From the NCBI RefSeq assembly GCF_964355755.1, contig NC_092680.1, positions 21,305,001 through 21,369,000 of the forward strand: DNA of 64,000 nt. The letters are read 5' to 3'. Below are positions 4,250 through 53,440 of this stretch, piece after piece. Below the pieces are notes generated by a model. It did no database searches. It saw only the letters and a list, made by a program, of their open reading frames with translations, and was not told the DNA's origin. The first letter of the stretch is position 1. Every line of letters starts with the position of its first letter. The stretch comes from Antedon mediterranea. Taxonomy: Eukaryota; Echinodermata; Crinoidea; Comatulida; Antedonidae. Position numbers and translations under genes: made by a program.

Positions 4250-6238
4250 GTCGTGCCCACAGATGGTTCTCGAATACACAGTAATTTCAGCGTAACAAAA
4301 CTGGCGATTTCAAATGTACGTACCGCAGGACTATAATACATTGTCGTTTACAGAAACGAATAATTAGACACGATGATTTATGTAGTCAACTAAAATTAGC
4401 ACCCTGGGAATTACTTCCGAAGGCGAAACTTATCACAAAATGAGTCCAAATTTTTGATTTGGACTCATTTAAAGAAACCCAATTTGTGTTTTGTATGTAA
4501 CATTAGGGTTGAGGGATGGGAAAGCGGATAGGTACAAAGAGGAATAATTTTTAAATATATTCTTTATCCACTTAGTAACGAAATATTTTTTTCATGTTTT
4601 ATAGGCCTATAAATAATATACCTCTAAATAAAGTAAAACATTTGCGATTTAATACTTTGTTAAAACTGTCACTGTCATAATCGATTGAAATATCAAAGTA
4701 CATGTCACGATACACCACTACGACGTTTATATTATTGGTAATTATTAATTAATACAAACGTTGAGAAGGAACTGTCAGTATAAAGTTTATTTTTATATAA
4801 TAATGTGTTTATATAATCAGTAGAGCCTAACCACAATCTCAGTAATAAAGTTTATTTGTATATATTTTTATATTACATCTAACAGTATGAACATTCACAG
4901 TAAGAAATGTTCGATTCAAATGACGACCAAAAATAGTTAATAGGTATTTACAGTATTGTCAAAGTATTGCAAGTTTATTCTCAAAGGGCCCATATATTTA
5001 CCTACCGTATGTGTTAAACCAAGGGCTCATAAATTTACCTACTTGTGTTAAACCAAATTCTGGGATGTTCCATTCATCGCAAATCAATACATTTGTATAA
5101 TCGTATATTAAATCTATCAAAATAGTATTTTTTTTTAAAGAAAATCGGCCTGTATTCAACATTATGATGCTGTACTTTAGCTGTTCAACCAGTTTTCAGC
5201 TATTAAAAACAATTATCGTAGGAGGAGATAGGAAAATGCGAAGCCTCCTCGCATTTTTGTGGCGGGTATTTTTCAAGATGAACATCCATTAGACAGTGTA
5301 TACCACGATCGGAAAACACCCCTATTTGGGGCAAATCGTTGAACCTAAATTCGTTTTAATCGTCAATAACTAATTACCTAACTCAATTTAATTAGTAAAC
5401 AGGGTTATGTCAGATGGTTAAAATCAGTACCGAAAGTATGAACCAACTTTATATACCATCGAGTAAAAATTCTATAAATTAACCGAGATTTATCGAATTT
5501 TGCCCTTACGTAAATTTATATATAGACGCTGATTAAGTCCGATTACACCTGATTGCTCTGGTTTGACCTGATTCATTGTTATTGCACACAATTTTTGTTC
5601 GTCGTCGTTCAATCTGCTTTCACCTCGGGGTGTATTGATTATAAACCCTCATCGATTCTGTACCGGCAATCATTAATGGTGAGAACAATACATTCGATTT
5701 CTATTCTTGATTATCATTATTATTGTTGAATCTACGGTAACGCTTTGTTGTTACTGGGCTACACTGATATTATGACTAAAAACTATTCTTTTGAATGTAA
5801 TAGTGAATGGATTTTATTTGTTTGCGTCTTAACAATCCTTGTAATTAACTATGTTAAGTGAGCGTTCAATATATCATTAAACAAATTTATGCTGGAAAAA
5901 GTCACTCCATTCAAAGCTATTCGCCTAAAATCCATCAAATCACGAATAGGTTGTACGGACATTATTTATTCGCGCACACGTACAAAAGGAACTTTTATAC
6001 GCACGTGCGCGTCGTCACGGCCGTGTTTCCCTTTTTTTCTTTTCGCGATGTCATTGCCAAAATCACTCTCTCGAAATGCAGTTTTAAAGAATTATTCTGT
6101 GCACTGAAGTCACAATTATATATATATAAGCATTAAACAGTAACAATATTCTGTTAACAATAACAACGTTTTTAATTATTACTTTGCAGTGGACCTAATC
6201 AGCCTTAATTAGTTGTAGGAATTGACAGAAAAAAATAT

Positions 6239-6372
6239 TGCAAGATGCAACGCAAGGACGTAACCGCGCCGCAAGTAATTGGACCAATCACGACGCGATG
6301 GGTCAACTGAACTGTCGCTTGTGATTGGTCAACTCACTTGCGTTCCTGCGTCACGTTGCGTTCAAGTGGGAA
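6239..6372. mobile_element. Foldback MITE, family 1 (ends eroded)
   Basis: The core is typical: GCAACGCAAGGACGTAAC, then GGACCAATCACGACGCGATG, then GTCGCTTGTGATTGGTCAAC and TTGCGTTCAAGTGGGAA. The left outermost 'GGTTCCCACTAG' part is missing. Confidence 0.75.
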
Positions 6373-6864: not shown

Positions 6865-7086
6865 ATGAGCATTAGCCTGCGGACGTTTATACGCCGACGG
6901 ACGCACTCAGGATTGGAAATGCTCAACCGTTTAAAGAGTTTTGGGGGAGTTAGTATGAGGCGACGTGGTACTACAACCTCGTCGTCAATGATGCATATGG
7001 TACCAAACGAGGAGGACACGTTGGATGATATTGTCATGACGTCGGAAGTGTGTAGTATTTTTGATAGTCCATATCGCCTTATAAAG
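6865..7086 (+). CDS. TRPA1: TRPA1 alternative first exon 1a
   Basis: This is a 74-codon open stretch from ATG (G at -3; in-frame TAA at 6850-6852) to a strong donor, ATAAAG|GTAAGA. It ends in phase 0, which is what TRPA1 exon 2 at 23395 needs. The encoded N-terminus is basic early on (SLRTFIRRR, RLKSF, MRRRG), then Ser/Thr-rich and acidic (PNEEDTLDDIV), and ends SPYRLIK. Exon 1b ends AYILK in the same position. Splicing to exon 2 skips exon 1b and removes a 16.3-kb intron, giving a 1,250-aa channel. Homology alone cannot prove it, because TRPA1 N-termini are poorly conserved. The phase, the donor and the matching C-terminal pattern are the evidence. Confidence 0.72.
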
Positions 7087-10000
7087 GTAAGAACTGTGTA
7101 TTGTGATATTTTGTATATTTTGTAAGATCATTTTAATCTAGACCTTTTTATTTGAATTGCCCCGTGTGGGATGATTAAAGAATTTTGAATTTAATTGAAT
7201 TGAACAAAATACTAGACAATAATATTTTATTATTTATTAGAAAAAAAGGAGGTAATATGGAATACAAAGTGAATATACAAGATTTAAAAATGATATTGAT
7301 GAAGTTGATCAAATTGTAATGACATTAGAAGTTAACAAAAATGTGATAAATAATATGATTTTATGTCAATAAAAGTGGTGTTTATGCCACAAAAAAGGAA
7401 CAAAATAATAATATGTTATTTAAAACAAGATAATATTAATTATAATTAAATGCAAAAACGTAGAGAAGTTGTATTTATTTGAGTAGCCAAACTTATTTCA
7501 ACAAACAAATTTTAGTATACAAGATAGCTATTTATACACAGCTTTTGGAGTTGAGTTTTGTTTACATTAACAAAGAATAATAATAATATTTTATAGAAGT
7601 AGTCTTCATTGTCAATCCGTTGTCGTAAATGTACACATTAATGGTCTAATATTTAGAATAATATTGTTGACATAGCAATATTTACAAGATCATTTCATAA
7701 TTAAATACATTTCTTTAATACATTTATTCGCTCAATATTGAATATTTTCAGATGAGCAATGATTTAACTACAGTATAGGCCTATGACTAATTAATTAACT
7801 ACAGTACAAATTCAAAGATGTATTGTCCCCCTAAAAAAACAATTCTGTAAAAAAAAAATTGTTGAGTAGGCCTATGCTATTTTAATTTCACGTAGTTATT
7901 TATGTTGACCAAAAATTGGATCGAAATTGGCTGCCAGTGGGTGGGTTTTTGATTGAATGGGGATTGAATCTAACCATTTATTTTGTCATTTTATAAGTGG
8001 AAACATTATTGTGCTAATTTTTTTCTGCGGAAGTGATTAGCTGTATTAAAACTGCAGAATAACCTATTCCAAGTCCGATTTAATTAATCTTCATTTTAAA
8101 TGTTTTTGGAGGAAAATACATATTTAACTAATGTTGAGTTACTAAACAATTAAACTATTCAGAAAAAGGGTTTTTTGTCGACTGCTGATATGATTTACAT
8201 ACAATATGGTGACAATATAAATGACTGGCTTAATTGACCCATATGCTAAAAGGGACGCTGATCTAAAATTCCACGTTACAAATAAATTACAATGAGAATA
8301 ATTTTATCATTTTTATTGTTATTTTATCAAATACAATGTTTGTTTTAAAAGAGGACTACTGTATTTTTATTAATTTTTTTTCTTAGTTGTTATACTTTAA
8401 AAGATGTTTTTTCTTGTTTTGTTCGTTTTATTGTAATTCTCTCTAACAAATAAATAAAAATTTAAAAAAATTAATTTATGGAGGCATTTAAAAAAAAATT
8501 TAAATAATCATCGTCACTGGACAATGTAAAGAACTGAATTTATTTTTAATAATGTGAATACTATAATGACTGAGCAATGGCATTTTTATTGGTCACTTTA
8601 TTTCAGAATAAAAATTCCATACAACAAACAATAAAAACGGAAATCACACAAAAGTAGAATTTTCTCTCATTTTGTGAAGAGATTTGAAGATCGTAACAGC
8701 AGGGAAGAGTGGAATTATACTCTTCCTTGGTAACAGATAGTTGCGGATTACACCTAACAAGATCATTTCACTATTGAAACTCTTAGCCTATTCTAAAACG
8801 ACAGACGTTTTAACTGTTACAACATACAATACGAAATATGCCTGCAAATTACATGTGATAGGATAGGACACAGTAATTTTACATTTACACATTGTCAAAA
8901 ATTATTACTTCAAAATTCCCTAATTATTACAATTGTCCGTCAATGTTTAGAATCTTCACCATTCATCGTCAGACATTAGCAGATGTATCAAACATCATAA
9001 TAATGTTTTTGTTATACGTTTTTTTAAATATTTGTATGACACCGATTGTGCCTGTCATGCGTTTCACAAGGCTTAAATAAATTTGCATCTGATTCTCCTG
9101 CATAATGGTCATCATTTTCCTCATTACGTCATCATCTAGAGGATATCAAATGTTCCTTAATTACAACTTAATCAATGACTGACCAACGGTAATGCGTGAT
9201 CTTCGATTTATTCCAGCAAGAACAATGTCCCCTCGATCCAATACCCTATTTGTTCCGTCTACTTTTCAAAGTAAATGTTTGTTTATAACTGAAGTTATTT
9301 TTGAAAAATATATTTTCGATCTAAACCATTTCGTCGTCACCTAGTAACCAAAGAAACATAGAATAAAACAGTTGACATGTCGCTGAGAACAAACAGCAGC
9401 AATTTAATCGAAACATTTCATAAAGGAAAACACCAATTAGTGAGATGATCGAAATATTTGAAATTGGTATAGTAGTTTTACAGTTACATAAACAACCGTT
9501 TGAGGTATCGTTCAGTTTATTCAAACACAACAACAACCAACGCTGTAAGAAAACAGATTAGGCTGATGACAAATAAACCACTCCTTACGTCGGCAAAACT
9601 ATAACGACGCGTCGTACTTATGTTATCAATTATTATATATTATTATCAATACTTATTATTAATCCACGAGCTCATGTTATAATAGCTATATATGACGTCA
9701 TGTGGTATCACGTGCGCTTACAAATATATCTTAATATTATTTCTCCTGCATCTTTTAGTAATAACGTTTGGAAAATGTTATGTAAAATGTACATAATTAT
9801 TATAAACCATTTCTCATTGTTTTCATGTCATAATCTTCCATCCTTCATTTTTGTTTACATGCTTCCTGTCTTCTGCCTCTTGCCTCTCACTGATGACCAA
9901 TTATTTTTTTAAAGTTTTTTATTTGATTCCCTTTTTAAGATTTCTATTATGATTATATAAATTCTATTTTTTACTTGTTGTCAACTATTATGTTATTGTC

Positions 10001-10275
10001 TTGCCAAATAGTATCGTTCTGAGGGTCCGTCGATCGGCTTCGTAATAAAATTAAATACAAACATCGTTGAGAGTGCGCATGCGTAGACGTACTGTTGATA
10101 ATATTTCTTAACCGTTTACGTCCTTCTTTTTTTAGTAGATATTAGCCTATTGAACAATTTATATGTAGAAAATAAGTATATAATATCATCTCATTTTCAG
10201 TACTAATTTAACTTTGAAATAATAAATTAAGCTTGGTATGTTGGCGACTGAGGAGTATTGATAACATCTGACGAT

Positions 10276-10389
10276 ATGGACAGCCTAATCAAATCTATCA
10301 ATTTAGTTGACAATCAGGCGATAACATTATTTGTCAATCAGTACTTAGGTAATGAAGATAATGATCTTTCAATGGTATTTTGCAATAAG
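10276..10389 (+). CDS. Possible third TRPA1 first exon (1c)
   Basis: An ATG in good context (G at -3 and G at +4, in-frame TGA at 10249-10251) opens 38 codons starting MDSLIKSINLVDNQ. They end ...VFCNK at a usable donor, AATAAG|GTACGC, in phase 0. Both stronger first exons also end in Lys in phase 0, so this would splice in frame to exon 2. A short ORF ahead of a GT is not rare by chance in 14 kb, so I rank it well below 1a and 1b. Confidence 0.3.
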
Positions 10390-10645
10390 GTACGCCCTTA
10401 TCATATTTCTCAGAGTGTAATAACCCTTATATAAAATGACTGAAATAATCCATTAGGTTTAACCCTTATGTTTGTCATCATGGCATGAATTTTGTGAATA
10501 ATTATCTCAGTTTTCCCATTCATGGCATTAAAGGAGGACATCAGATAGTTTGTTAGATCTATAACCATCAAAGTAAAATAACTTGTAGCTGATTCAGTCA
10601 GTCTTTGGCCACACTCCCATTCTAGGCTCAATGAAAAAATATATA

Positions 10646-10965
10646 AGAAGCAAGTATCAGAAACAAAAATGTTTTTATGGCTTACATATGCAATTACTCT
10701 ATCATACAATGAAAAATGAAATTGAAGAAAACTCAAAACAAAATAGAAAAGAAGCAAGTAGAATTCAGAAACAAAATTACAAATGGTTTCATGGCTTACA
10801 TATGCAATTACTCTATCATACAATGAAAAATAAAATTGAAGAAAAAAAATCAGATTGAAATAAAAACTTATAAAATAAAATAGAAAAAAAGCAAGTAGAA
10901 TTCAGAAACAGTTAAGAATGGTTTCATGGCTTACAATTCAATAACTCTATTATACTATAGGATAT
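10646..10965. repeat. Tandem repeat, ~115-134 bp x 3
   Basis: Three diverged copies share 'atggcttacatatgcaatta' near 10677, 10792 and 10926, and an A-rich 'agaattcagaaacaaaa' segment. Open frames on both strands here are by-products of the repeat. Confidence 0.8.
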
Positions 10966-13900
10966 AACCTATTTTATTTATTTATTTTCAATCTTTCTAC
11001 ATAGCAAAAAAACAAACATATAAGTATAACAGGAGAGTAGCGGAAAAGCAAAAGTATAAAACTGTCATCTTGTGATGTGCTTGACCAGCCCCTGTCAACT
11101 TGAACGATACAATAAAACCGACATTTAACAAATTTAGAAAAATACATAGAAAAATAAGGTATAATAAAATGTTAACAAAAGTGTTATAAAAATGCAATTG
11201 CTATCTGAACAATCTGATTGTGTAAAAGTTAAAAATTCTGATTGTATAAAAGTTAAAAATTAAACCTATATAAGTAGTTTACGTTTATATCACTGTACTA
11301 GCCTACAATAATATATATGGCATGTGAAGTCATGAAATATGTGCTAATTGGCATTTCTTTGGCTAATAGTTTTTTTTTTAAATTAAAGTGTGCTAAGTTA
11401 TACAAGGTGACTGACTTAAGTTATAATCATTGTAGTCAACAAGTGTGCAGCAGCTAAAATGTCATAATCATATTTTAGTCGTCAATTATTTTTTTTCTCA
11501 TGTAGTGATTCTCTATGGTTGAATGACGTATTTTTTCATATCATTTATCCTAATTATATTGCCCTACATTTTCACTATTGATGATCTATTTTTTTGTCAA
11601 TAAAAGTTGAATGAATAATCTATTGATCAGCTCACATGATTTTGTTATTTCTTTAACTCTGCAATCGATCTCATGACGATATTATAAAAGCCATTATATT
11701 TGTTAAAGAGATCGTTTATCATAAGCGGAATCAGTGCTTTTGACTCCACTTTATCCATCTACTATTAGTAACCGCATTTAGAATAATTATTTATACATCA
11801 TCTCAGTTTATAGTCTATAATGTTAATGTGAATGTGATATGATCAGAGAGAATGTTAGCGAGTACATGAACATCTCTCTTGTTAAAGCATTACTGTGAAA
11901 AAATTATTCCAAAGATAAACAATTTCTACTTTTTCTAAACATGGAAAAACGCCCTGTAAACTGTTACCTTACACATTAGTTTATATTGTAACAATAACTG
12001 TTTGATAAATGAACATCTTTTGTTTAACATTGTTGGGTCGGCAAGGTACAGGGGAAACTGTATCTACATAATGCATAATTCTAATTTTTGATGAGAAATT
12101 AAGAATTTCTACTTTTTCATGGAAAAATATACTGTTGTTGTAGACAATTTAGTTTAGTTTGTATGTATAAATATTGGTTAATTAACAATATTTGACAATA
12201 TAAAAATGAAGATTTATTTTTATTCTTATTATCTCATCTTAAAGCTTATTTCTTTCCGACAAAATAGTATAGTGTTTAGTAGACTTGCTCCAAGTCTGTA
12301 TTGTTTTTTTTAATAATTTATTTGTTTTTATTTCGACCCCGATTTTTGTCTGAAAATACAGACTTGTGAAACACGTATAGAAATCGATTTGCAGACCGCA
12401 AACAACTGATAAGAATGACGTAGGTTATCATACCGTATTTGGCTATATGGGGCGGGCGGTATTTAAATATGGATTTCAAATCAACCAATGATCATTTTGT
12501 TTCAAAATGAAAAAGATCGAGTACGTACAGTCATGCTGAATGTACGATCGAGACTGTTGAAATAATGAAATCGTGTTGCCAAGTTGTTTTGTTTATTAAT
12601 TGTTTAGTCCTTAGCCTAGGCCTCGCACGTATGATCTGCCAAATAAAACGCCAATAAGAGGTAGGCCTACATACCACCACCGGCACACAACAGGATTCAC
12701 ACACAACAGACAGGGCTACGACACCACTACACAGAACAGGACAGGGTCTAGGTGGGATTTAAATCAAATTATCTCCGCGTAATATTAAATGATTCATTCA
12801 ATGTTTGATTTGCGCAGAAGCAAGACGAGTTTTCATGTTCTTGGGGAAAATCCCATCAAATGTTTACCAGACTACTACTAGGCATATAAAATCATTTCTA
12901 GCCTTCAGAAACTTTCATCAATGTCCCGATCAATGTACCCAAGTACATTGTCTAAACGTAACATAGCGCATGCGTACCACAATTAGTTGTTGAGTCTTTG
13001 AAATTCTGAAATATGAATATTAAAACAGTGTACGAGTGAGTAGCCAATCGCATGCAGCTGAAACTAGTCAACCGGATAATCTATGCACCAAGAATTCTTG
13101 GTGTTAAACCACGTGACTTTTGCGTGTTTCCCCAGACGGAGTATCCAAACTCAAGTAATACACGTATGAAACGCCATATGTGCAAAAATGTTTATATTTT
13201 TACTAATATTAAGAAAAAAACTCCGTCTGGAGCCCAGACTAAGTGTTTAGCTACACCCACGTCATATATTGTCTGATTCCTCTCGATGAAGGATTTATCC
13301 TGCTAGCTTCTAGGGTCTTATCGTAGACTGACATCAATCGGTTCAATCTCCTATTATCACTTTTGACAATTGTATTTGTTTCACTGTTACTAAAGCAAGA
13401 CATCATAGGATTCATTCTTTAAAACATTCTGTCTCGTAAATAAATGTTTGTTATGTTCTATTAATAATCATAAAGCTTGCTTGTGAAATGACAAGTTTTG
13501 CAAACCTTAAGTGTGATGCTTACATTAAAGTGATGCTTTCCTCAAGTGAAATAAGGAGGCAAAAAGTATTATTCGTATAGGCTGCCTCCTCTCTCATCTC
13601 ATAGTTGTTATATGTGAGCTGCTTATGCTTAATGTTAGCACCTGTGTATGCTTAGTGTCTATTCGTTAATGTCCTAATTGAGATTTTTTGTCTTTTAAAA
13701 CGAATTTAAATTATTCTGTTTTCATTTAAAAAAATACATTCTAAACAAAGACAGAGAACATTAATCGTGTTTTCCAACATGCCAATATATTAGCATAAGT
13801 CTAACATTTCTTGATTGGTTGTGAATTTGTTTCATATCCCAATAAGTAAATTGAAATGTCAGTACTAATGCGCATTATATTCCATCTACTTTCGATTCGC

Positions 13901-14445
13901 AAGAATAAATTTAATGAAAAACATATAAATAATATATTTTACTTGATTAGGTTTGTTTTGTCATGATTTTGTTAACCGTAAAAGTAATTGTAATGCTCAA
14001 ATATGTTTGACCTTCTGACACTTAGTACAATAATATGCCTCGTGTAAAATAATCAAATTGTAGTTTAACGTTAATTAAAAGATATTAAAAGATTTCAAGA
14101 AAGGCCTGCAGAAAGTTAATATTGACAGTTGCTGCAGTAAGTGAGGATAATTATTTTTAATTACCTTAAATATTGATTATTTTCAAATAAATGAATGTCT
14201 TAAACGGGTTTTAGAGAGGTTAGATAATAGAAACATTAATGTACCGGAATGTGCAAATCTGCTCTTTTCTGGATCAATTCAAGTATAAAGAAAAAAAGAG
14301 TAAATCTATATTTTAATATAATAATATTTAAAACATACTTACCACATCTCTCTGTGTCAAACGTATTCTTGTACATTTTTTTTTCAACAATGCTCCTCCA
14401 TACCTCCGTGGCTCTTTTATAGCTAGTTCACATTATTCATGAGAA

Positions 14446-14575
14446 ACAATGCTTTTCTTAGCTAGTTTCTATCCCGTCACTGTGAACTTTGCTATTGTTT
14501 TAGCTTTCAAACAATGCTTTTCTTAGCTAGTTTCTATCCCGTCAATGTGAACTTTGCTATTGTTTTAGCTTTCAA
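14446..14575. repeat. 65-bp direct repeat x 2
   Basis: The segment from 'aacaatgcttttcttagcta' to 'attgttttagctttca' occurs twice in succession, 65 bp apart and almost identical (one C/A change). Confidence 0.85.
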
Positions 14576-14943
14576 GCCAGTCCTTCCCAGTTTCATTTAC
14601 TGTATTTCCCACTTTCCTGGGATTTCTGCATTCTCACTCATGAGAGGACGAAGTATTGTGGTGTACCCGCAAACTTTATATATATCAACACACTATTATT
14701 TTCGCAAACCTTTCAAACAATATATACTTGCTTTGTTAAGTGTTTATATAAACGGTCAGTGAATGAGAATTTAATATTGACATAGTGGAAGCGTGTTGCT
14801 CTTCGTAAATCAAAACTATATCCATACCTGCACAAAAATCTAGGCAGAGGTTCTTAAATGGTGGATTATAGACACCGCGTAATATCAATTTCAAATACAA
14901 TCCGATGTAGGCTGAACAGTAAAGCACATGGCTTTTGCAAACT

Positions 14944-15165
14944 TGTTCACGGTAGGTTAACAGATCTTTCTTAACATGTATAGCCTACTTTACTAGCCTA
15001 GGCCTTATCAATGATCATTTGTTCACGGTAGGTTAACAGATCTTTCTTAGCATTTAGACTTTACTAGCCTAGGCCTTAATCAATGATCATTTGTTCACGG
15101 TAGGTTAACAGATCTTTCTTAGCATGTAGACTTTACTAGCCTAGGCCTTAATCAATGATCATTTC
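14944..15165. repeat. Minisatellite, ~71-76 bp x 3
   Basis: Three head-to-tail copies begin 'tgttcacggtaggttaacag' and end 'aatcaatgatcattt', near 14944, 15020 and 15091. Confidence 0.85.
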
Positions 15166-15355
15166 TTAAACTACCTTATTTAGCAGGCTTCCTATTTGTG
15201 TAAACATTCCATTGTTTATTGTATTTATCTCTGAGCCGTGGTGTGATTTTTGGAGATTGAGCTGCGAGTTGTTACGGCATTATTCCTACGTCATGCCTTC
15301 CTTGGTGATTTACAACAGGTATTATACTTACGAGAGGTGGAAAGACCCCGGGAAA

Positions 15356-15565
15356 GACTGATAGCTAAGATCGATGAATGAGACTGATAGCTAAGATCGA
15401 TGAATGAGACTGATAGCTAAGATCGATGAATGAGACTGATAGCTAAGATCGATGAATGAGACTGATAGCTAAGATCGATGAATGAGACTGATAGCTAAGA
15501 TCGATGAATGAGACTGATAGCTAAGATCGATGAATGAGACTGATAGCTAAGATCAATGAATGAGA
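15356..15565. repeat. 26-bp minisatellite x 8
   Basis: The 26-bp unit starts 'agactgatagctaagatcga' and is repeated about eight times with almost no divergence (one C-to-A change in the last copy). This suggests recent expansion or ongoing length variation. Confidence 0.95.
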
Positions 15566-15602
15566 CACTCCCATCACCAAAATAGACTATTGGTCAATTA
15601 GT

Positions 15603-15705
15603 AGAAGTTTTGTTCTATTTACTATATTGACTTGATTTGTGTATTATTAAGAAGAAGAAGTACATACACAAATCAAGTCAATATAGTAAATAGAACAGAA
15701 CTTCT
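15603..15705. repeat. Long palindrome, 42-bp arms
   Basis: Arms 15603-15644 and 15664-15705 are reverse complements with one mismatch (34 bp perfect next to the loop). The 19-nt loop contains GAAGAAGAAG. A transcript would form a long hairpin. It lies immediately after the 26-bp minisatellite. It may be a MITE reduced to its inverted repeats or a hairpin RNA source; nothing in the sequence decides. Confidence 0.9.
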
Positions 15706-16798
15706 TTTGTTGTTGTATGTAAATAAATAAATTATTACATATTACATTGGAAACTATTTAAATTAAAATAAGTTTAATGTGTGCTATTATGGTATACGGT
15801 AGGCCTACCCTTACATAAAATAGTTTGGTTACTTTGATCATGGAGGTATAAAATAACCTCCATGCTTTGATTTTATTATGAACGTGAGTTCCATTTACAT
15901 CTTTTAATCTTTACGACTAAAGCTCATACAATGTCGCTAGAATTTTGTGACAATTACTATTCACACAATACTTTAAAATATGGATATGGTACCAATGAAT
16001 ACACGGATTGTTTATAGCGATCAATACACTTACTGTTACTTGTGGCGAAACTTATTGAAATCATATTGGTCCTATTAAGGAGGTAATGCAAAGTGTAATT
16101 GGTGAACAAATAAAAGAGGAAAAAAAAGAAACAAGATGAAATGGTGGAACGATACGGTAATCATCAGTGGTAAAGGATAAAGGGGACGATTATGTTTAAC
16201 GTTACTTTTGCTGAACTGATATTGTTTTAAACGATACAAACTTTATTTATTCTGTCGCAATATCATTATCAAAGAGAAAAAATCAAAAAGAAACGTAATT
16301 TCCTGGTGGAACCTGTCTTAAATTTTATTTGAGTTTCACCAGATACAAGGCATTAACTATTTGATTCATATTTTGTTAACATATATTGAATTTTTCTTTG
16401 TTTAAATAAATGAATGAAAGAATGAAAGGGAAACGTAATGAGCGTAAGTGCGTACCATACTTCTTTGACTGCCGCAAGAGGGCGCGAATCCGGAAGTGAC
16501 TCTCAAAGCGAATTCATTAATGAGTTGGCCAAATTGAAACTTCGATTTAAGCTTAAATGACCGGTAACATCAATACAATCAAATTGAATCACATTCAATT
16601 ATATAAACATAGCGACCACGTCGTACGTACGACGATTAGATATGATTTATTAATAGCTTCGGCTGCCGCTAGAGGCGTGATTCCGGAAGTACTGGCAAAG
16701 TGCCTACAGCGGCGAATCCGAGCTTAATCGCGCTCTCTGTGCGAACGAAGTTGAAATATTCCAATTCCAATCAAACACCTTCAGTTTGTCTCGCTGAA

Positions 16799-16950
16799 GC
16801 ATTGGTTTCCACTGGAGACGCAATACAATGACGTAGGTGCACCGCAAGCGAGTTGAGAAATGAAAAGCGATGGATTATTCGAACTGCCACTTCATTGGTC
16901 AACTCGCTTGCGTTATGTCAACGTCATTGCGTTGCCTCTCTGTGAGAGAG
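16799..16950. mobile_element. Foldback MITE, family 1 (diverged)
   Basis: It begins ATTGGTTTCCACTGGAGACG. The interior has GCAAGCGAGTTGAGAAATG, GATGGATTATTCGAACTG and CATTGGTCAACTCGCTTGCG, and it ends with GTCATTGCGTTGCCTCTCTG. The arms still pair but carry more changes than other copies. Confidence 0.7.
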
Positions 16951-18263
16951 AAAACATGATCAACAACGCATAGTTTGTGGAATATCTGAGACAGCTATTT
17001 CCATAAAAGTGTTTCCATTGTCTCCTCCTATAGAATTTAATTATTGACATATTGAAGTAGACAAATCAGAAGGGTCACATACCTGGAAAACAGCAGGCAA
17101 TTAGGGTAGAATTAGTAAATTTAGAAACATACATTATTTATTAACAATTTAATATATTTAATTATCGAAAGATTACAATCAATTTATTTAGAATTTACAA
17201 AATATAAAATCCAACTTGAGTTAATTAAATTAGGAATATCTAATCAGTTTGTAATGGAACTAACACCAGAATATTAAAAATAGGATCAAAATTTATTTTA
17301 ATGTTTATACATGATGGTCGGTTTCGTAACAACCAATAATACATTGACTATACAATGGAAATCATTTTCACAATAACGGTTTTAGGTCTTTGATCTATAA
17401 GCCATCATGATTGTGCTGATGAACTATCGAACTTCGGAGCAGACGCATATGAAGTCGGAGAAGTTAAAGAAGTATTTTCGCATTTTGGTCTATCAGATTT
17501 CTTCTTTCTTTCTCGTCAAATCGTCACTCGAACGGCGAACGCGTCTGTCCATCATCTACGATTTCTTCTCTTTCGAACTCATTCAACGTATCTGTTTAAA
17601 GTGCAAATAACTTTTGATCAAAGTGTTTAAATTATTTAAAATTTTGTATTTAATAATAATTATTATGGAATCATCATTCAAAATTTCACATCATTACGAT
17701 AATTTGTTGCTGAAATGCAAACACTCATTCCAATTCAACTTTTCTCAAAAAGTAAAATGTTGTAGTTACGTTGTTTTGCCTTTGAACGGCCGTCTTTGAA
17801 ACGTTTCTTTATTACAATTCACCGCGATTGGCCAGATCATCACGTGTTTTCCGTGTCATGTTTACGCATAGAACTCGTTCATTAAGGATATTAGTGTGTC
17901 AACTATTGACGTTTTGACTTCGCTGATGATAATTAAAACAAAATGTTACCTGCACGTGATACATTAGTTTTCAAACTGATTGTTATTGAACGATTATATT
18001 GTGTTACAAAATAGATTAACATCCCTCCATTGCATTCATGATTGTAATTTCAATACTTCTTAAACGTTAAAAAAAATATCCTTATTTACAGATATAAAGC
18101 CAATATACAGAGATACAATTTTGAATCCATAAATGTATTATATATTATCATATCGATATTGCCTTCGTGCAACCAATCGTATAATACAGTTTACATAACT
18201 GTCTGATCTCGGTGCTTAATATACCTATTCTAATATTCTGATACAGTACATTCCAACGGCATA

Positions 18264-18352
18264 TACGTAACAATAATTTGACCAATCACAAGCAACGAAT
18301 GAACCGTCACTTGTGATTGGTCAACTTTCCTTCCGCGCACGTAGTGTGTTGC
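18264..18352. mobile_element. Foldback MITE, family 1 (internal part only)
   Basis: Only the self-complementary centre remains: TTGACCAATCACAAGC ... CACTTGTGATTGGTCAAC, with GCGCACGTAGTGTGTTGCC after it. Confidence 0.6.
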
Positions 18353-18594
18353 CAAGGAACAACAACACAATATCCATCACGATTGAAAACATTGCATCTA
18401 CGGTACGGTACTACTTTTGTATTTGATTGTAATGTTTTCTTATGTATATTAGTTAAGAGCTTTGTATCTATATATATGTACATAACGAATAAAGAATAAA
18501 TTAATGAAAAAAAATTACATAAGTATGGCTACACGACATGAAATATAACAATAACAGTTATATAATGAGGAATGTTACTATACCTTACGTATAA

Positions 18595-19421
18595 TACTGT
18601 ACGTGAGTGTATTGCTTCCTGGATATTGTATAGCTTTTTTTTTTTTTTTCTCTTTTGTGGCGCAAACACCACTTTTATTCACATTCATATTATCTCATAT
18701 TACATAAAATCGTATTATTTAACTTGTAAATGTCGTTACAGTTCATAAGTAACATTTTTACATATATGAATCCTGTATTACTCCTTTTTTCATTAATTTT
18801 CGTATATTTTGTTATACACTTGACAGGATCATCATTGTCATCTATCCCGTTTTAAAATAGTTCACACATTTTCATTTGTTTGTTTTCATTTTACAACCCG
18901 GATTATACAATATATTTATATACATGATAAAAAAAACAATAATAACTCAGTACCACCAGTAACCCGTATCACTGTAATTCTTTTTCGGTTAATCGTATCA
19001 AATTAGAAATTATATTATCATAATCTTATTTCTTAAAGCTACCCATTTTTCTATACTTGTTTCTTTATTGTTATATGTTTCACATTCAATGTTATATAAC
19101 ATATTGCTTTTAAATGAATTCCATAAAGATTTACCCACTGGCTTATTTAGTGCAGATAACATTTTTATTCTATAAATAGTAAATGCTGCAAAAGTGTAAA
19201 TATAATCTATTAGCTTATCTCCCGTTCCTAGTATTAATTGTTTAAATGATATATTATTGTGATTTAAACTTACAAAGATACTAAGCATTTTCCTCCAATA
19301 TTTCTGAATAAATCTACAACTAAAAAACAAATGATTTTCATTTTCAATTTCTCCACATTTGTCACACGTTTGTGTACTTGTACTGTACGTGAGTGTATTG
19401 CTTCCTGGATATTGTATAGCT
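18595..19421 (-). mobile_element. 5'-truncated LINE with 41-bp target-site duplication
   Basis: An insert of about 745 bp (18636-19380) is bounded by identical 41-bp direct repeats at 18595-18635 and 19381-19421. On the minus strand it reads from a truncated 5' end into a reverse-transcriptase C-terminal zinc-knuckle region (CDKCGEIENENHLFFSC, then FIQKYW). The coding frame stops at 19010. About 370 nt of 3' UTR and a poly(A) tail follow (the long T-run on the plus strand from 18636). Truncation, tail and duplication together are the classic outcome of target-primed reverse transcription. Which LINE clade it belongs to cannot be read from this fragment. Confidence 0.9.
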
Positions 19422-20978
19422 ATTGTTTTTTTACCATAACATCATGAATATTCATGAGCTTTGAAAACAACAAAGATGGTGTATGGTAGCTATTCTGTCG
19501 GTCTAGACTGTAAGGTGACATATTTTAGATATATTATTCTTTAATCGTAACGTCGAATATTAACGTTCAGATGGAATGGCTCATAAACAACAAATCAACT
19601 ACTAATGACAGTATCATATATCCAATTGTGTAAAGTGGTTAGAGAAGAAACATTCCATTTCATTGGCTTCATTTGCTGTTTTCAATGTAAATTGCTTGCT
19701 TTTTTAAAGTGAACAATTCCCTTTGTTTTCTCGGTATTTGTAGGGAAGAGTGAATTTCACTGTCTGGTTATACGCACTTGCACTACTTTCTGTAGGATTA
19801 GGCTACGATAGACATTTCTATACCTCCATGATATTACACCGTGTGACTATCTCTATTGAGGCTGTCACAATGTTTAGTTTTTCTACATTTTTTGGAAGAT
19901 TCATCCAATATAGGCGATAACATCTGCCAGGTATAACTGTGATGCTTCATTATACATTCATAATGACAACAATATCAATTAGAATAGGGGATGTGTCGAA
20001 TAATTGCTATGTGAAATAATGTACATAGTTCAGACGGGTAAGCAGACTTGAAAGCTAAATGGATTGAATTCTGCTGACAAGTGGTTTGTTACGTCACAGG
20101 TTTTAGATTATGTACATTGTAGTGCTTGGATTTGTCGTGTGAATGAACTGTATTGTCTACTGTTAGTAGGCCAAGCCTTCCGATTTCGCCACCATCTTTC
20201 ATATATTATTATAATACCACATAATCAAATATATAATGGATGTTTTATTTCTGTAATATTCAAGATTGGTGATAATAGGTATCGGCAATCATTGATTAGT
20301 AAACATGATGATTAAGGAGTTTGTTTTCGAATTCTGGTTAATTCTGGTTGAATATTAATAATCCCGGTTCTTTGAGAGTGGTTTACACGCAGTAGTTCAC
20401 GCGTTCCTCCGGGCGTTCTCTTGATCAATCGTCTGCTTTAATACAATTTTAATGTAAAAAGATTCGTTTAATTCTGAGATTAATTTGTTTTCTTTTTTGA
20501 CATTGATTCATGTCAAGTGAATAAATGAAAAATCGTTGACAAATTTGCATATCTGTTAAGTCATTTGAGGTTTAGCCAATAGTGGGGTTGATTTAATGCA
20601 CACGCGCAACTCTAAAATTAGGATGATGGGAAAATTATACAAACAAGATTTGTTTCAAGAATATTCTGTACAGATCTGATTTGAAATGTATGCATGCGAT
20701 GTCCGGCTTGGGATCTCTATTTATCGAGCATCCATCAGTGTTGAAAGAAACTGAACTGATTGTATACAGCAGTATACCAATACCTGAACATCGATTATAA
20801 TTTGGACACTTGCTCTTCTAGACATTGTTACATTTGTAGTTTTAAAAAAATATCCAGACATTATTAATAAAACTTAAGGTGTCATCCTGCGATAGCTATC
20901 TCGGTGTAGAAGAACTGCATCAAAAGTTAAACGCAGTAATACACACCTTGAACTTCCTGTGGCAACACACGTTGAAGG

Positions 20979-23900
20979 ATGAGCGGCTTACGAAGGCTGA
21001 GTGAAATCGTGGATATAGCCAGAAGAGCTTATATTGGAGGGTTTCAAACAAGAATCGAAGCTGAAGAGGCTATGCAATTGCATTCATCCGCTCGACAATC
21101 CAACGCTACTACTAATTCTGATATCGAGATGGTTGACGGATGGGATGATGTTTTAAATGATGCCTATATTTTAAAAGTAATGTATGGTGATTTTATTTTT
21201 ATGTTTAATGATCAGGTAATGGTCAGTGAATGTTATTGACTGGTTTGCTTAGAGTATTAAGGTATATTTGAGTTCCGTATTTCATTTGCATGCCAACTTA
21301 CCGGTAACGTGTGTAAAGTTCTATGACCTATTCAATTCAAAATGTAAAAATGTATGTTAAGTCAAATTGAGACTGCTGGCATTCAACAAAGAATGTGACG
21401 TAACTGTGCGTAGTAAAGGCCCGCATGAATGCAAAACGTTGACAAAATTGTGGTTTATTTGTGTATTTCAATTGTCTGTTATCACTAATTTTAAGGCATC
21501 GGTTTGGTTCGAATCTTATGTTATCATTTAGGACATTCTAACGGTATTGCTTGTGAAGTGACTCGATGATCAAACTGGTTGTAAATTACACGACACTATT
21601 TGTTCAGCTTGAGCTATTAAAACTAGCTAGATAGTTTACACAGGTACTATTAACCTATTAACAAAGTGTGGTAAAACCATGTTTATATATCGTAAAATGA
21701 ATCCGAACGTTTGGTCACAATATATCGACCGCGTCTTGTCTATAGAAACAAAGAGTTAAGAGGGCAAAGAATGTATTTCAGCAACTGTACCTTACCGGAA
21801 GAATTATTCCTCCATGGATGTACCCTCGTCGACGGAGCAAAACTTCAAAGTAATTATTTAAACTATATAAAGTGCAGTTGGAAAATTGTTTACACATGGA
21901 ACAGTAAATGAGGCCTATTGCATACACTACACTTGTCAAGATGTTTAGACATATGATGATTTGTAATAATTTATAGAAAACAACTAGCCACTGCAACTGT
22001 GTTGTTTATTGTCGTAATGTAAGAGTGGATTAGACTAATTCAGTTAAGCTTTTGATGATAAACTTAATCTTCCTTTTGAGTAAATACGTAGTCTTTCGTG
22101 GTATTATAATTACAATACTAACATATTCAATTCCGTTTATCTTATATTGATGTACGTGATCGGAGGCCTAACGTTTCATCATCATCATCTTACAATTGAT
22201 GTGACACCTAAACTGGTGAATATCATTTCAATATGTGCGATAATTGCCATCAATATTTTTTTTTATCGTTATGATGATTTGAAAAGTCTCGCTTAATACA
22301 AACATTGTTCCAACGAGATACAAAGTTGAAATAATGACCACATTTTTGCTTATTGTAAGCAAAAGGCTGATTTTCTAATAAACGTATAAAATATACATTA
22401 GGACTTGGTGTTTGGAAGTAGTATGGTGGGTGTCACACAATAGCATTTGTTCCAGCATGTAAATGTAGTGTCTTCTCAAACCTATCTAATTTGTATAACT
22501 GTATAAAGAGGTATAACATGTTTTTCTGTTTCTACAATCATTTTTTTTAATGACGTCATGTTAAAAAAAACTTCTCAGTGATTATACTGATAATTAATTG
22601 TGATTTTTAAAGACTAAAATAATTAATTAATAAATATCTTTGTCTCAGATCGTGTTGGTTGGTTAGTTTGCTGGTTTTTAATGACTTATCTGTTTATTTT
22701 TCAATTCCTAAATGGCCTAGGCGATAAAACTCACAAACACCCTAATTAGTACTACTACCATTTTAACACACTCTACAAACCTCGTAATCATTGTTTCTAG
22801 TTTTATTATATTACAAGTCTAATGAATGACGTCATCAATTCTGTAATTAACGTACTTATCTGTAGAGCATTGCAGGTGCATTTAATTGGAGTAATTAGTA
22901 TTAATATTCATAATTAATAATGAATGTATCATCAGACTAATCGTTGAAACACAACTAGCCACAAACAAAATTGCTTTAGTATTCATTTTTTATTATGCTT
23001 TTTATTATTCTAATAATTATAACTCTCTTATTATAGTTTGACGACATTCCATACTAAAAGAAAGTTTTCACATGAGTCACAAAACTAGATAGACTCGAGT
23101 AATGTTAAATACAAGTAATGCTGATAACAACATTATATCAAGGCAATATAATAATTGCCTCATTGAAAGAAACCACATACCGTACTTTTTTACTGCTTTT
23201 TACTGTTTGTTTGTTAATGCAGATATTTTATGGGTTTTTTTTGTTGCAAATATGTAATATTCCTTGTAAATGCAGGCCCTTTATAACGTAATTAAGAAAA
23301 ACGAATTCGTCTGTATAATTTATTGACTTGAAATGACATAGTTTTATTCAATCGATATCCTTCATCATCGTCCAATTTTTTTATTTATTTTTAGATAGCA
23401 GAGAAGGGAAATTATGATGAATTTATTGAGCTGTATCGGAGTAAACCGGACCGAGTCAATTTTAAAGATAAGCGTGGTGCCGGTGTTCTACACCATTCGG
23501 TCAAAGGCAACAACATACAAATCATGGAGTTCCTCATATCTGAGGGCATTGGTAATATTCTATTTTACTCTTTTGTTTATGTTTGAAAGAAGTTTTACAA
23601 TATGGAGTTTGTGAAATTCTAATTAATAAGTCTAGTCTTGAAAATGTACCAAAATGCGAAAGTTTTCTTGAGGTTTTTTTTTACTTCTGCATGAGTTTGT
23701 CAACTCCGTCTACACGCAAACTTTTCTTGCCAAATGCTTGAGTTTGCTTGTGTTTTAAAACCAAAGTTTAGCTTAAATGATTAAATGATTTGAATTGTTG
23801 TTGTTTATCGTTTTATGTATTGCAATACATTCTGATGGGTTTCCCGCTGTCAAATTTAAATGAAAATAAAAAAAAAACACATCATCATTAGGTTATATTA

Positions 23901-26900
23901 TCAACGGGAATCTTTTTTACACATATCTCCAACTTCTTATTGTTGTAATATTATCCTAACCAACCTACTTAAATTATTATCAACATTTGGTTTAAACAAA
24001 AAATGTTTAGTTTGATTTTTCTCAGAAACTCTATTATGTCATTTAGGCGTATATGAAAAACAACATGATCATGTAGTTTAGGTCTATCTCATGTTAGGGT
24101 TTATCTCAGAGATTTTATTTAATTTGAAAGAAATAAATATATAATAAATATATATAAAATAAATTAATTGCAAAAAAAGAAAATATTATCCATTATCGTT
24201 GAAAGTCATGATTACTTCCATGTTTTAATCTTCCTCCTGATCTATCATGTAAATAACGAGGCTTCAGTACAATGTGATAAATTACACGATTAACATTCAT
24301 ATAATAACTATATATTGCAACGGTACAGTCGCAAATCAGTACGATGTTTTGCAATCTCAATTTCATTAATCAAGTTAACCTTCTTTGGTTTGCATAATGT
24401 TGTTAGTTCCGGAACATACACATTTACAATTCCACGGTAATTAATTTCAACTTTATTTTGTACATTTCAACATTTCGCTTCGTGGATTCCATTTTGAAAT
24501 TAGATTCTTCTTCTATCCTCTTTCGCGTCATATCATTACTACAAAGCTTTAAATTCATTCTGACAGCTTCATTTATTAAATCGCATGAAATGTAGACTCC
24601 TTTTGTCTACAAATTTAAACCGATCGATCAGTAAACATTAATACGTCATAGCATCTTATAACTGTATCAAACTATTTCTAATGTATGTCAAGTGTGCTTA
24701 TTTACTTTATGTAATATGTTGCTGTATTGACAACAGTAGTGCAATGTATTTTGAGAATCTAATGTAATTTAGACCGAAAAGGAAAACTAAGAATAAAAAA
24801 CAAATTTGCAGTTTCTTTTCATTTGAAATGAATAATGTATTAGAAAAATATGAATAATGTCAATAAAGGCTAAAATGAAATGGAAAATTAATAAGTTTTT
24901 GAAATAAAGAGATTTTATTTTAATAATATTCAAATGCTTTCGTTTATTTTCTATCCAAGGATGACAACCATGCTTGTTTTACATTCATGTTTTTGTTAAA
25001 TGTGTTTAAAAAAAAGTATTTAAAATTCCCTGGCTGACTTTTGTGACTTTTACTGTATAAATGCCAAAGATGGCTTTTATCTATTCTAATCTTGTGTAGT
25101 TTGTTCAAAGGTTTTTTTTTAATTGTTGTGATTTATTTTTAATGTTTTATGGCCCTTTTTGAAAATTAACACGTGGAGAAATCTTTCCAAAATAAATATC
25201 TTTGAACGGAGATAAATGAGCCAGATAAAAAATGATATAATCATATATTATACAAATTAAAATTACACTTTTTCAATTATGTTCAGATGTCAATTTACAG
25301 GACTCCTCTCAAAACACACCTCTTCACTGGGCAGCTTTGTACGACAAACCCGATGCTTGTCGATTGTTATTGTCAGAGTTTGGAGCCAATCCGAATATAC
25401 TAAACGACTGCCATCAAGCCCCACTCCACATTGGATGTGATAAAAACTATACAAGCATTGTTGAGGTAAGTAAGAACATGTAATTTTTATTGGCAGTGAA
25501 CATTACTAGAATAAAAAACTTCCATTTTATTCAATTTTTTTTCTAAAATTGATTTACCTCCCTCAGGAGAAAACAGAAAATAAAACAGTAAATTGTACAA
25601 TATAAAAACACCGTTGATTTAAAATTCACATGGTTTATAGCATGTAAAAGAAAAATCAAAATGATTTTTAGAAATTCAATGTGCAAAATATGTAGGCCTC
25701 TCTTACAGACTACTACTTTACTATTTTAGTCTAGTTAAGCCTCTATCTACTGTCATATAAATAAATAAATAAACTGCTAGATAGGCCTATTCTTGCTTTG
25801 TAGGCTTTAACCATTTTGTTTTTCTTGTCAATTGGATATAGAAACCCCTAACAATCGAGAAAACACAATGTTTATATTATTTTATCTATTTTATTCAGAT
25901 GGTACACAATTATATATCTTAGAGCATATATTATACAATATACAATTCTTTTTTACTCTAAGATATATAACTAACTAAGTAAAAACCTCTATTTGACAAT
26001 TTAAGCAATGCTTTTGCACATGCTTTCTCCATATGTGCAAAGAAGAACTATTTTGAAAGTGTTAATAGTTTAAATAATAACAGAAAAGTCTCCCAAGCCC
26101 ATTATAATTTAATCAAACTCATTTGATTAATATGTTTCTTCAGATTTTATGTAGTGAGAGCAAGACTGATATCAATTTAGCAGGGGATGCAGGACAAACC
26201 CCACTTCACTACTGTGCTGTTAAAGATAGTGTCGAAACCGCAAACATACTGGTGAGTAGAACATCCATATCAATGTGAAGGAATTTCAGCCTAACTGTGC
26301 TGTATTACTAGCTCGCATATGTGAACGACAAAAAACTACTTTCATCTCATTGCCGAAAAGCCCTCTTCCGATGCACTGTGTTCTTTAAAGTATAGGCCTA
26401 TACGAGCCAGATGTGTAACCTGGACCTAAAATCCTTATCCGAGAAGAATTGTTCTACCACCAGAACAATGGTTGACGAGAGGCGTGAACCTGTGCTGATT
26501 TTATGGCTATGGTTTACGGTGAACCCTACCACTCGGCCACCTAAAGTAAAGTTTCTTTAAACCGTTTCTAAACTCAAGATTGTTATATCCATTCAGTCTT
26601 AGTCAGTGTCATCATAGCTACAAACTACCTTAATATATTATGATCAGATCAGAAATAGCATGTAATAAAGATCCATTGTAATTAACGTTGTTGTTCTCAG
26701 ATTCGAAAAGAAGCTAAAATGACGATACCAGATTCGAACGGAATGTATGTGTTACATTCTGCTGCAACCCATGCCTCGTCTAGAGTGCTTGATCTGTTGT
26801 TTACAGAAGGTGAGAATGAAATATCATTTAATACATTTTCATTTCTTTCGTTATAGTTCATCGTGATTATTCAATAGAGCGCATCTCGCGTCTCAGCTCC

Positions 26901-29900
26901 GTGCACGATTTTCAAACTTTTGATTTGTTATTACGGAGAAAATTCTCACGCAACCATTTCTCATCATGGATGTGTTGGTTAAACTGTAGGTGGGTTACGT
27001 GCATCACGTAGGCCTCTACTTTGGGTAATAAGGAATATACATCCAATTTCCGCACATATATTCTAACATACGTCTTCATTTTATTTGCGACATAAATTAT
27101 CACCGAGTCCAAATAAAATATTACTTTGATAGATTGTGTAGCCTACTACTGTAATTGTTATTTCTGTTAATAAAAAACGATTCTTGTTTTCTATGTAAAA
27201 TTAATCCTCGTTTACCTCAACATTACGTTACGTGTTGTTTGCAAATTAAATCTGAGACTTGAAAATAAGTATGTTTGAGGCGTCGTTGCAAGCATGTATA
27301 TATTGTATAAGCCTACAATATAAGTATTGTTCTGATTATGTTTATCCAATAAGTAGAACTTCATTAAACAATTGTAAGAATGTTGAATCGTTGTCTTGAT
27401 TTATAAAGAAAGTTGGAATTATTATAATATAATATAACTATGTGACTGGATTGTGTCTCACAGGTGAGAAGTTTGGATGTACCAGAAAAAGCATGTTATC
27501 TCTGTTGGACCGAGAGCAGAATTCAGCATTACACTGCGCAGTGAACGGTGGGGACATCAATGCAGTCAAACTCTGCTTAGATTTTGGGGTGGCATTGGAC
27601 GTAAAACAGGTAAGGTTGTAAGGGCCTTTGTAGGCAGTATGTATTCTATAAAATAGGTATTTTATAATACGTAGACAAGCTTATAGTATTTTGATCACTC
27701 TGCTACTTGTAAAATAGCCGATAATTTCCAAAATGTGTTCGGGCATTTCTAAAACAATTCGGAATTAAAAAAGACTTAAATAGAGTAAATGGCATGATTA
27801 TCGGGTCTGTATTGTGTTACAGCATAATATAGAAGCTATTAGTAGATAGACAGACTAGTTAATTTGCTACAATGGTGTTTTTTTATATTTTATAATTATA
27901 CTATTATTTTTCATAGCCAGAAATCAGTTAGGTGATTTTTAAGAACAACATGTTTTTCAATATCGCATTGAAAAACAACATAATTAAGTTTGAACAGCAA
28001 GTTTACTTTGATTATAATATTAACAGTTAAGAATACAAGGCTGGTGAAGATGGCCACTTAAGCTTCATTACCATGTCACATTTGTTTAATTATGTGCCTG
28101 TTTAATTAGCTTTTGAACTCGTGATGTCGACATGTAAACACTTTACTAGTTGTTTTTATACATAGTGCTTTAGGCTACACGAACAACACTTAAAGAAACA
28201 CGTTAGAAAGTTTAAAATCTAGTTCTCAGGTTTTTTTTCTCTGTTATTTAGAATTATTGAATTTCATACATACATTGGTTAAAGAGTGCCGCACGATATC
28301 TTGTTTTTGCTTTTAAGTTGGTCATCCTAGCTAGAGGATATAATTTAAGTTGGTCATCCTAGAAGATATAATTCCATTATGTTTTCATTGTCAATAACCA
28401 CCAATGTAAATAAGGACTCCGCAGGCTAGAGTGTAATAAATAAGATAAAACGTCATATTGAGCTTATACAGAAAACAAAATACAATATATGCGTGACAAT
28501 GTTTTAACAAAATTATTACCGATAAATAATGTAAATGTAAATAGTGATCGTTGTTAAACTAAGTACAGTATTGAATTAAGTTTCAATGTAATCATTTGTG
28601 TTGTTAATAGGCCTATGTCGTTATTTAACCGTCAGATGATCATTTGTGTTGTTAATAGGCCTATGTCGTTATATTTAACCGTCAGATGATCATTTGTGTT
28701 GTTAATAGGCCTATGTCGTTATTTAACCGTCAGATGATCATTTGTGTTGTTAATAGGCCTATGTCGTTATTTAACCGTCAGATGATAAATATCTTCCTGG
28801 TGTTTACTCATCTATTGAAGTTTAAATGAAATTAGCGGCGCAATTATTTATCTGCTGTCTCTTAATCTCATACAGCGTCAGATGTATTATTAGATAATGA
28901 TGATCATACATTTCTTAATATCAAGTTATTCATTGCAATGTAAACACACAATATATATTTTATTACACCTTCGAGATGAACGCGAGTCAAAGTACTTGTA
29001 GAATATCACGAGTTGTTAGTAGTTGCTGTGATGTAGACCGCTAAACTCGTGTTTACACGGTAACAGGTAGCTTGTGTTTTCTAATTGTTTGAAACGAAGT
29101 CTTGATTAATGACTATGAAAGCAAGTGTACTTTTATGATAAAGCTAATAGGAATTGGCACTGATTGAGAGCTTGTAATGAAGCACTTTCACGAAGTCAAT
29201 TAAAGAATAAATGTCAGCCAATTTAATTAAAAGCATGACTCGCGAAAGCAGATATTGACTGTTACTATACATTGTTTTATGACTAGATGTATAATTAATA
29301 CTATCATAAACGATTTTACGACATGGCTTGTTTTGAAAATCTTGTTAGTTGCTGAAATGTTGGATTCAAAGGAGCGTTAAACCACTGCACTTCCATTATG
29401 TGATTGTAATTAATAAATGGGTGTCAAATCTTTTATAATCAAAACAGCTCAAAATATAGCTTGTTGATAATAATGAGTAAGCTATTTTGAGATGAATCAG
29501 CAATATTGTATCTTCACGTACGTCGTTACGAACGCGTCTCAGGTTGCATTGCGTCAGATGGTGTAATTCTTCACGTACGTCGTTAGGAACGCGTCTCAGG
29601 TTGCATTGCGTCAGATGGTGTAATCTTCACGTACGTCGTTAGGAACGCGTTTCAGGTTGCATTGCGTCAGATGGTGTAATTCTCACTCGCATAGCAAACT
29701 ATAATTGTAAATAAAACACAAAGCTTGATTTCAGTTAAAATTAACCAGAGTAATCTTTAACACAAACTAATAATCATGAAGTACATTTTCATACATTATT
29801 TGGCAATTTTTAGAACAAAAACTCTAACTAGCTAGCAGCTGAACATATTCGAAACAAAATAAGGCTCTGTTTACACTATCAAACTTTATGTGACAACAAA

Positions 29901-43500: not shown

Positions 43501-43539
43501 AAAAAGTGCGTATTTTGGCCATTTTTTGGAAAAAAATCC

Positions 43540-52905: not shown

Positions 52906-53440
52906 TTTTAAATCTCAATTATTTTGCAATAATATTGCAATATATGCACATATTATATTACGTTAAAACACCATCTTATAAAATCATAAATATTAACAAA
53001 TTATGTCAAAAAAATAAAATGGTGGAACATTGGTTATTTAAAAAATATTTCCCTGTGCATTTTTTTTAAATGGCCAAAATATAGACTTTTTAAAATTCAA
53101 TTATTATGCAATAATATTGCCATACACATATATTGCGTTATCATAATCTTATAGGGTCACATAGTAACCAGTTATGTCAAAAAATAAAAGGATCGTAATG
53201 TTGTCATTTTCTGACAAATTCCCTGTAGGCATACATGACTCAAATATCGACTTCTTGTTCTATTTTTATGCAATAATATATATATGTGCATGTATTGTGT
53301 TATCATCATGTTATAGAGCCATACTAATTAGTTATGTCAAAACATTAATGGGCTGGAATTTGACAATTTTTCGACATATTTTTTTCACATGCAGTCTCAA
53401 ACATCATCATTTATTTCATCATTTAAATCATTTAATAATA
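52906..53440. repeat. Degenerate satellite A, right of satellite B
   Basis: Blocks resembling satellite A ('gtaaccagttatgtcaaaaa', 'ataaaaggatcg', 'ttccctgta', 'gcaataatattgc') recur about 165 bp apart near 53002, 53173 and 53333. They are much more diverged than the left-hand array. Confidence 0.7.

Follow-up and report, generated by a model that had tools for sequence, protein, structure and literature searches.

The stretch of the crinoid Antedon mediterranea genome considered here (the window: 64 kb, positions 21305001–21369000 of contig NC_092680.1) carries on its plus strand a complete gene for TRPA1, a sensory ion channel that acts as a receptor for irritants and heat. Twenty-five common coding exons, extending from 23395 to 41676, are preceded by two candidate first coding exons, 1a at 6865–7086 and 1b at 20979–21176, and with either of them the spliced gene is a single open frame without an internal stop, giving a product of 1250 amino acids with exon 1a and of 1242 with exon 1b. 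The common exons were assigned by tblastn with a human TRPA1 query, and by reading the splice signals; the introns between them are GT-AG in 24 cases out of 24.

The best solved relatives of the predicted protein, as found by phmmer, are Drosophila TRPA1 (7ykr, 840 bits) and then human TRPA1 (729 bits); the alignment takes in residues 73–767 and 798–1125 for the fly protein and 99–1123 for the human one, and the long N-terminal ankyrin array and six-segment pore are collinear with those of known TRPA1. A search of the genome (354 Mb in 18 contigs) with the pore region gave one strong TRPA1 locus, which is the gene in the window. Since the next pore matches, on contigs C6 and C7, are far weaker (E values of 2.2e-9 and 1.7e-5), TRPA1 looks to be single-copy at the sensitivity of this search. 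In the C6 TRPA-like gene (L013 and L014, minus strand), the ankyrin and pore matches are readable as collinear with TRPA1.

Exons 1a (74 codons) and 1b (66 codons), both supported by a scan for open reading frames (ORFs) and by codon score, lie where the original prediction had placed them: each is open from an ATG to a phase-0 end, is preceded at a short distance by a stop codon in the same frame (TAA at 6850 and TGA at 20973), and fits the phase-0 start of exon 2 at 23395 (IAEKGNYDEF), with the spliced frame open throughout exons 2–26. Their donors had both been described as strong, which holds for exon 1a (AAG/GTAAGA, 11.1 bits on a matrix built from the gene's own 24 donors) but not for exon 1b (AAA/GTAATG, 5.3 bits), than which only 1 of the gene's other 24 donors, or 4 of the 24 by leave-one-out, is weaker.

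How often such ORFs might arise by chance was assessed in positions 1–23394 of the window, where the ATG ORFs of at least 40 codons that run into a phase-0 donor scoring 4 bits or more have five ends, all within the 1a and 1b ORFs. At thresholds of at least 60 codons and at least 5.2 bits, set after the exons had been seen, the real sequence contains two ORFs; of 200 dinucleotide shuffles, 34 contained at least one such ORF and 2 contained two or more. Raising the donor threshold to 8 bits leaves the real count at two, a number that none of the 200 shuffles reaches, but exon 1b then counts via a donor at 21215 and not via the proposed one. In controls at 60 codons and 5.2 bits, there was no qualifying ORF on the reverse strand of the same interval, none on the plus strand and one on the minus strand of 41678–54900, and one (64 codons, donor 8.2 bits, codon score -0.14) on the plus strand of the 20 kb that precede the window.

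Codon usage is exon-like in both. The score is a mean codon log-odds, for which a table of 5,349 codons was compiled from six long ORFs in this genome (chosen from ankyrin matches, and hence biased), and the controls were 55 non-exonic ATG ORFs of at least 45 codons. Exon 1b (0.278) is above all 55 of these and exon 1a (0.108) above 54, while with a table made from TRPA1 exons 2–26 alone each is above 54 of the 55. For both first exons, the proposed frame is the only one of the six to score positive, which leaves an antisense ORF over exon 1a unsupported.

The frames, the phases, the codon usage, the rarity of such ORFs, and the aligned junction (see below) make alternative first exons of one TRPA1 gene the best reading, that is, a pair of predicted exons, 1a and 1b, joined to the common exon 2; we put its probability at roughly 0.72, with the weakness of the 1b donor counting against it. 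The gene would then yield two or more messages that differ in their first coding exon. The two first exons, 13.9 kb apart, would each supply a start codon of their own and be joined in phase 0 to the start of exon 2 (23395); most likely each would have a separate promoter, and transcripts beginning at 1a would lose 1b as intron. The resulting two channels would have their ankyrin repeats, membrane part, and tail in common and would differ solely in their 74 or 66 N-terminal residues, which would run into the first ankyrin helix and make it complete.

Several observations weigh against this reading. The 1b donor is not only weak but is followed, 39 bases downstream, by a stronger one (CAG/GTAATG, 9.0 bits, at 21215), so that exon 1b could have a 13-codon extension (21177–21215). 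The 13 added codons, however, score negative (-0.15), and the longer end (NDQ) does not have, in third place from the junction, the hydrophobic residue that is present in 1a, in 1b, in a fly primer, and in the C7 gene (see below). Exon 1a outscores 54 of the 55 control ORFs and not all of them, and the codon test is a coarse one, with 6 of the 25 common exons negative on the six-ORF table. Neither first-exon peptide matches a Pfam or NCBIfam family, nor do they match each other. The 250 bases that precede 1a contain six ATGs, so that 1a may have a short or interrupted leader; before 1b, an AG at 20821 scores 6.2 bits, which is inside the range of the 25 real acceptors (3.4 to 14.9 bits), and could end a leader intron. 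A segment at 21746–21849 on the plus strand, between 1b and exon 2, is weakly exon-like at the loosest thresholds alone. Finally, the naming of the fly isoforms, with which a comparison is made below, varies between papers: in one (PMC8541009), C and D are grouped with A, and B is set apart.

The exon-like segment just mentioned comes from a scan that recovers 12 of the 24 internal common TRPA1 exons at its stricter thresholds and 16 of the 24 at its looser ones. At the stricter thresholds, no exon-like segment was found on either strand of positions 1–23394; at the looser ones there were two on the plus strand (6229–6274 and 21746–21849) and one on the minus strand. Further upstream, in the 20 kb before the window, four candidate first-exon ends of at least 40 codons were found and none was taken as TRPA1; among these, the 64-codon candidate has a donor of 8.2 bits and a negative codon score, and a 42-codon candidate, which has the best donor of the four, may be syntaxin-like, although Pfam does not indicate this. 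A minus-strand exon resembling stathmin also lies upstream of the window (Pfam Stathmin, E = 0.0032, which falls short of the curated cut-off).

The original prediction also held that the two exons encode ends of the same kind (YRLIK and AYILK), which is true in a loose sense: the last residues are alike, and the peptides are otherwise unrelated (BLASTP E = 0.69). Because the peptides do not align and the matches between the exon DNAs are short (best E = 0.21), this likeness is best read as a structural need common to the two, namely the completion of the first ankyrin helix, and not as a sign of common descent. In composition, the exon 1a peptide has a basic first half (+8 in 35 residues), a charge of +3 overall, and one cysteine; that of exon 1b has no cysteine and a net charge of -4. 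A recent tandem duplication as the source of the pair was considered and rejected, there being no exon DNA match longer than 12 bases and the BLASTP and DNA values being those just given. An origin from a mobile element was rejected at the level tested: each exon region with its flanks matches itself alone in the genome, and no second copy of 1a or 1b was found, in a search that skips very common words. Structure models of each first exon alone had a mean pLDDT (predicted local distance difference test score) of 59.6 and 62.9, too low for use.

As regards promoters, no AG in the 260 bases before 1a scores higher than 2.4 bits, which is less than any of the 25 real acceptors. With no good acceptor close to 1a and a leader intron possible before 1b, the sequence leans towards separate promoters. 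Both exons are presumably transcribed, each most likely from a promoter of its own, and perhaps with tissue specificity. A core promoter motif, TATAAATA, at 6690 before 1a was considered and found to be uninformative, with 16 copies on the plus strand of the window and none before 1b. If both exons are indeed used, another possibility is a single distant upstream promoter with an untranslated leader and alternative splicing. This would suit the 6.2-bit AG at 20821 before 1b and would have a parallel in Scaptomyza, where exons upstream of exon 1 supply start codons (PMC12132172), but the poor acceptors before 1a make it rather improbable.

A further alternative is that only exon 1b is a real first exon of TRPA1, and that 1a is either an open frame that has a good donor by chance or the decayed remains of a former exon. 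Exon 1b is the nearer of the two to exon 2, has the better codon score, and has no ATG in the 250 bases upstream; moreover, 34 of the 200 shuffles contained at least one qualifying ORF, and the 20 kb preceding the window contain one whose codon score is negative. However, 1a has the stronger donor (11.1 bits) and a codon score above that of 54 of the 55 controls, and it ends flush in the frame and phase of exon 2, with a hydrophobic end that suits the first ankyrin helix, so we consider this alternative unlikely. The converse, that 1a is the main first exon and that 1b is either spurious or uses the 21215 donor, draws on the difference between the two donors of 1b (5.3 versus 9.0 bits), but 1b is above 55 of 55 and 54 of 55 controls on the two codon tables, and a 1b exon running to 21215 would have 13 negative-scoring codons and an NDQ end without a hydrophobic residue at the third place before the junction; this makes it very improbable. 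Least credible of all is that 1a is part of another transcript (perhaps one with further exons that were missed) and is never joined to TRPA1. In its favour, 1a and 1b lie 13.9 kb apart, and the stricter thresholds of the scan, at which nothing exon-like appears upstream, also overlook half of the true internal exons; but no other exon-like segment was found in positions 1–23394 at those thresholds, TRPA1 is the next recognisable gene on the plus strand, and the frame of 1a matches that of exon 2.

With alternative first exons as the preferred reading, the position of their junction with exon 2 can be compared with that in other TRPA1 genes. In the phmmer alignment, the last two residues of exon 1a pair with L61 and E62 of 7ykr, and exon 2 with A63 onward, which places the junction between residues 62 and 63; with exon 1b, the table likewise begins with query 65 paired to chain 61 (start pair only). 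Fly TRPA1 isoforms are described as differing in a 62-amino-acid N-terminus and in another region (PMC10073219), and a fly exon-1b primer, from a set said to straddle two exons (PMC11471635), translates as VDYLE-A. The junction between exons 1 and 2 thus coincides in the alignment with the point at which the fly isoforms diverge, a coincidence for which the basis is a single published length (62 residues) and a single primer.

The C7 TRPA-like gene provides a second comparison. It contains, from 4267 of L011, an exon starting AG/GCT (AARDGDV) in phase 0 at the same place before the first ankyrin helix, which we infer to be joined to ankyrin matches 7 kb further on and to the C7 pore match; upstream of it, the same scan gives a single first-exon ORF (111 codons, donor 12.7 bits, 2211–2543 of L011). 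This case is partly circular because the motif search was built for such starts. No exon with such a start turned up in the motif search ahead of the first match in the C6 TRPA-like gene, so that the common intron occurs in one of the two genes examined. Since the junction aligns with the length of the fly N-terminus and the C7 gene seems to have the same phase-0 intron, the splice point between exons 1 and 2 is probably old; the two first exons need not be. The suggestion in the original prediction that this would be a separate case in this lineage becomes uncertain, as the arrangement, with a junction aligned to that of the fly isoforms, could be old and not independent.

In Drosophila and mosquitoes, alternative 5' exons of TrpA1 are known to alter thermal and chemical sensitivity. 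The crinoid arrangement resembles that of exons 1a and 1b of Drosophila and Anopheles TrpA1 (isoforms TRPA1(A) and TRPA1(B)), in which distinct 5' exons with their own start codons lead into a common body (PMC5068967), and it resembles the Drosophila isoforms also in having its junction at the aligned position. A second alternative pair, comparable with exons 10a and 10b of the fly, was looked for by searching the exon peptides against the masked window, and weak matches alone were found (best E = 0.028). The mite Tropilaelaps mercedesae is similar in having three TRPA1 isoforms (a, b, and c) with different 5' exons, likely different start sites, equal numbers of ankyrin repeats, and differing chemical sensitivity, and it is unlike the present case in that b and c use several upstream exons and in that the three isoforms were shown by 5' RACE (rapid amplification of cDNA ends) (PMC4929936).

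Among echinoderms, the starfish Patiria pectinifera likewise has a TRPA1, which is heat-activated, beside a second TRPA gene (TRPA basal). The words isoform, splice, splicing, and variant are absent from the main text of the article, and its cloning primer, when translated, suggests a protein starting MEGDE, unlike either 1a or 1b (PMC5438368). Among the literature matches listed, none was noticed that describes alternative first exons of TRPA1 for an echinoderm, and the available portions of the planarian, scallop, mosquito, and review literature contain no further case outside the arthropods.

An ancient origin of the pair itself may also be envisaged, in which exon 1a would be the counterpart of the first exon of insect TRPA1(A) and 1b the other type, so that the two-ended gene would predate the protostome–deuterostome split. 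Residues C105 and R113/R116, specific to fly TRPA1(A), are needed for its responses to nucleophiles, peroxide, and ultraviolet light (PMC5068967), and the sole cysteine of exon 1a, C63, is followed by R71 and K74 at the same spacing (+8 and +11), the third residue being K and not R. This spacing, noticed after the fact, arose in 1,412 of 100,000 random orders of the 1a residues; flush with the exon end, it arose in 41 of 200,000, a figure that applies if the fly junction falls just after R116. On this hypothesis, the 1a channel would respond to nucleophiles, peroxide, and ultraviolet light via C63, R71, and K74, and the 1b channel would be of the warmth type. We regard so old an origin as doubtful, and the spacing as a lead and not as evidence of orthology.

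The body of the gene, all on the plus strand, is as follows. Exon 2, the first common exon (23395–23551), has a phase-0 start inside the first ankyrin helix (IAEKGN) and aligns with 7ykr from residue 63 onward. The ankyrin exons 3–13, identified by tblastn and the spliced frame, lie at 25287–25465, 26144–26251, 26701–26809, 27464–27609, 30122–30255, 30881–30929, 31201–31401, 32657–32826, 33307–33471, 34071–34185, and 34699–34865, respectively. The spliced frame and the alignment to solved TRPA1 then give exon 14, between the ankyrin repeats and the membrane part (35943–36015), exon 15 (36308–36367), exon 16 (36679–36774), exon 17 (37292–37362, also by tblastn), exon 18, in the region of the first membrane segment (37617–37770), and exon 19 (38178–38267). 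Exons 20 (38521–38690), 21 (39050–39179), 22 (the pore region, 39634–39831), and 23 (the TRP helix region, 40093–40272) are given by tblastn, the spliced frame, and the pore-region search; exon 24 (40617–40744) by the spliced frame; exon 25, the coiled-coil region (41036–41161), by tblastn and the spliced frame; and exon 26 (41322–41676), which contains the stop codon and encodes an acidic tail, by the spliced frame. This last exon has a long aspartate/glutamate run close to the C-terminus.

Other features of the window include a short reverse-transcriptase-like remnant on the minus strand at 19010–19441, between 1a and 1b, where an open stretch is similar to the zinc-binding tail of such an enzyme (zf-RVT, 18.7 bits, below the cut-off of 27.5), and, at 14931–15614, two repeat arrays, one of three 72-base copies and the other of nine in-register copies at 26-base spacing. 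The sequence TAGGCCTA occurs 18 times in the window as against 0.39 expected from the dinucleotide content. A search for a mitochondrial COX1 gave no match. Downstream of TRPA1, a 295-codon ORF on the minus strand (55106–55993) matches arylamine N-acetyltransferase (Pfam Acetyltransf_2, E = 6.1e-14).

What the sequence offers is thus a well-placed candidate pair of first exons in TRPA1, ordinary in kind, in an arrangement that is already known and a lineage that is probably new to it. In flies and mites, exchanging the front end of TRPA1 alters what the channel senses, and by analogy the two ends of the crinoid protein may tune sensing, with different responses to heat or to chemicals. If the pair is real, a case outside the arthropods at the same point in the protein would show the device to be more ancient than has been assumed, or else the one splice point to have been reused in evolution, and the two forms would be a natural pair for testing the N-terminal tuning of heat and irritant sensing.

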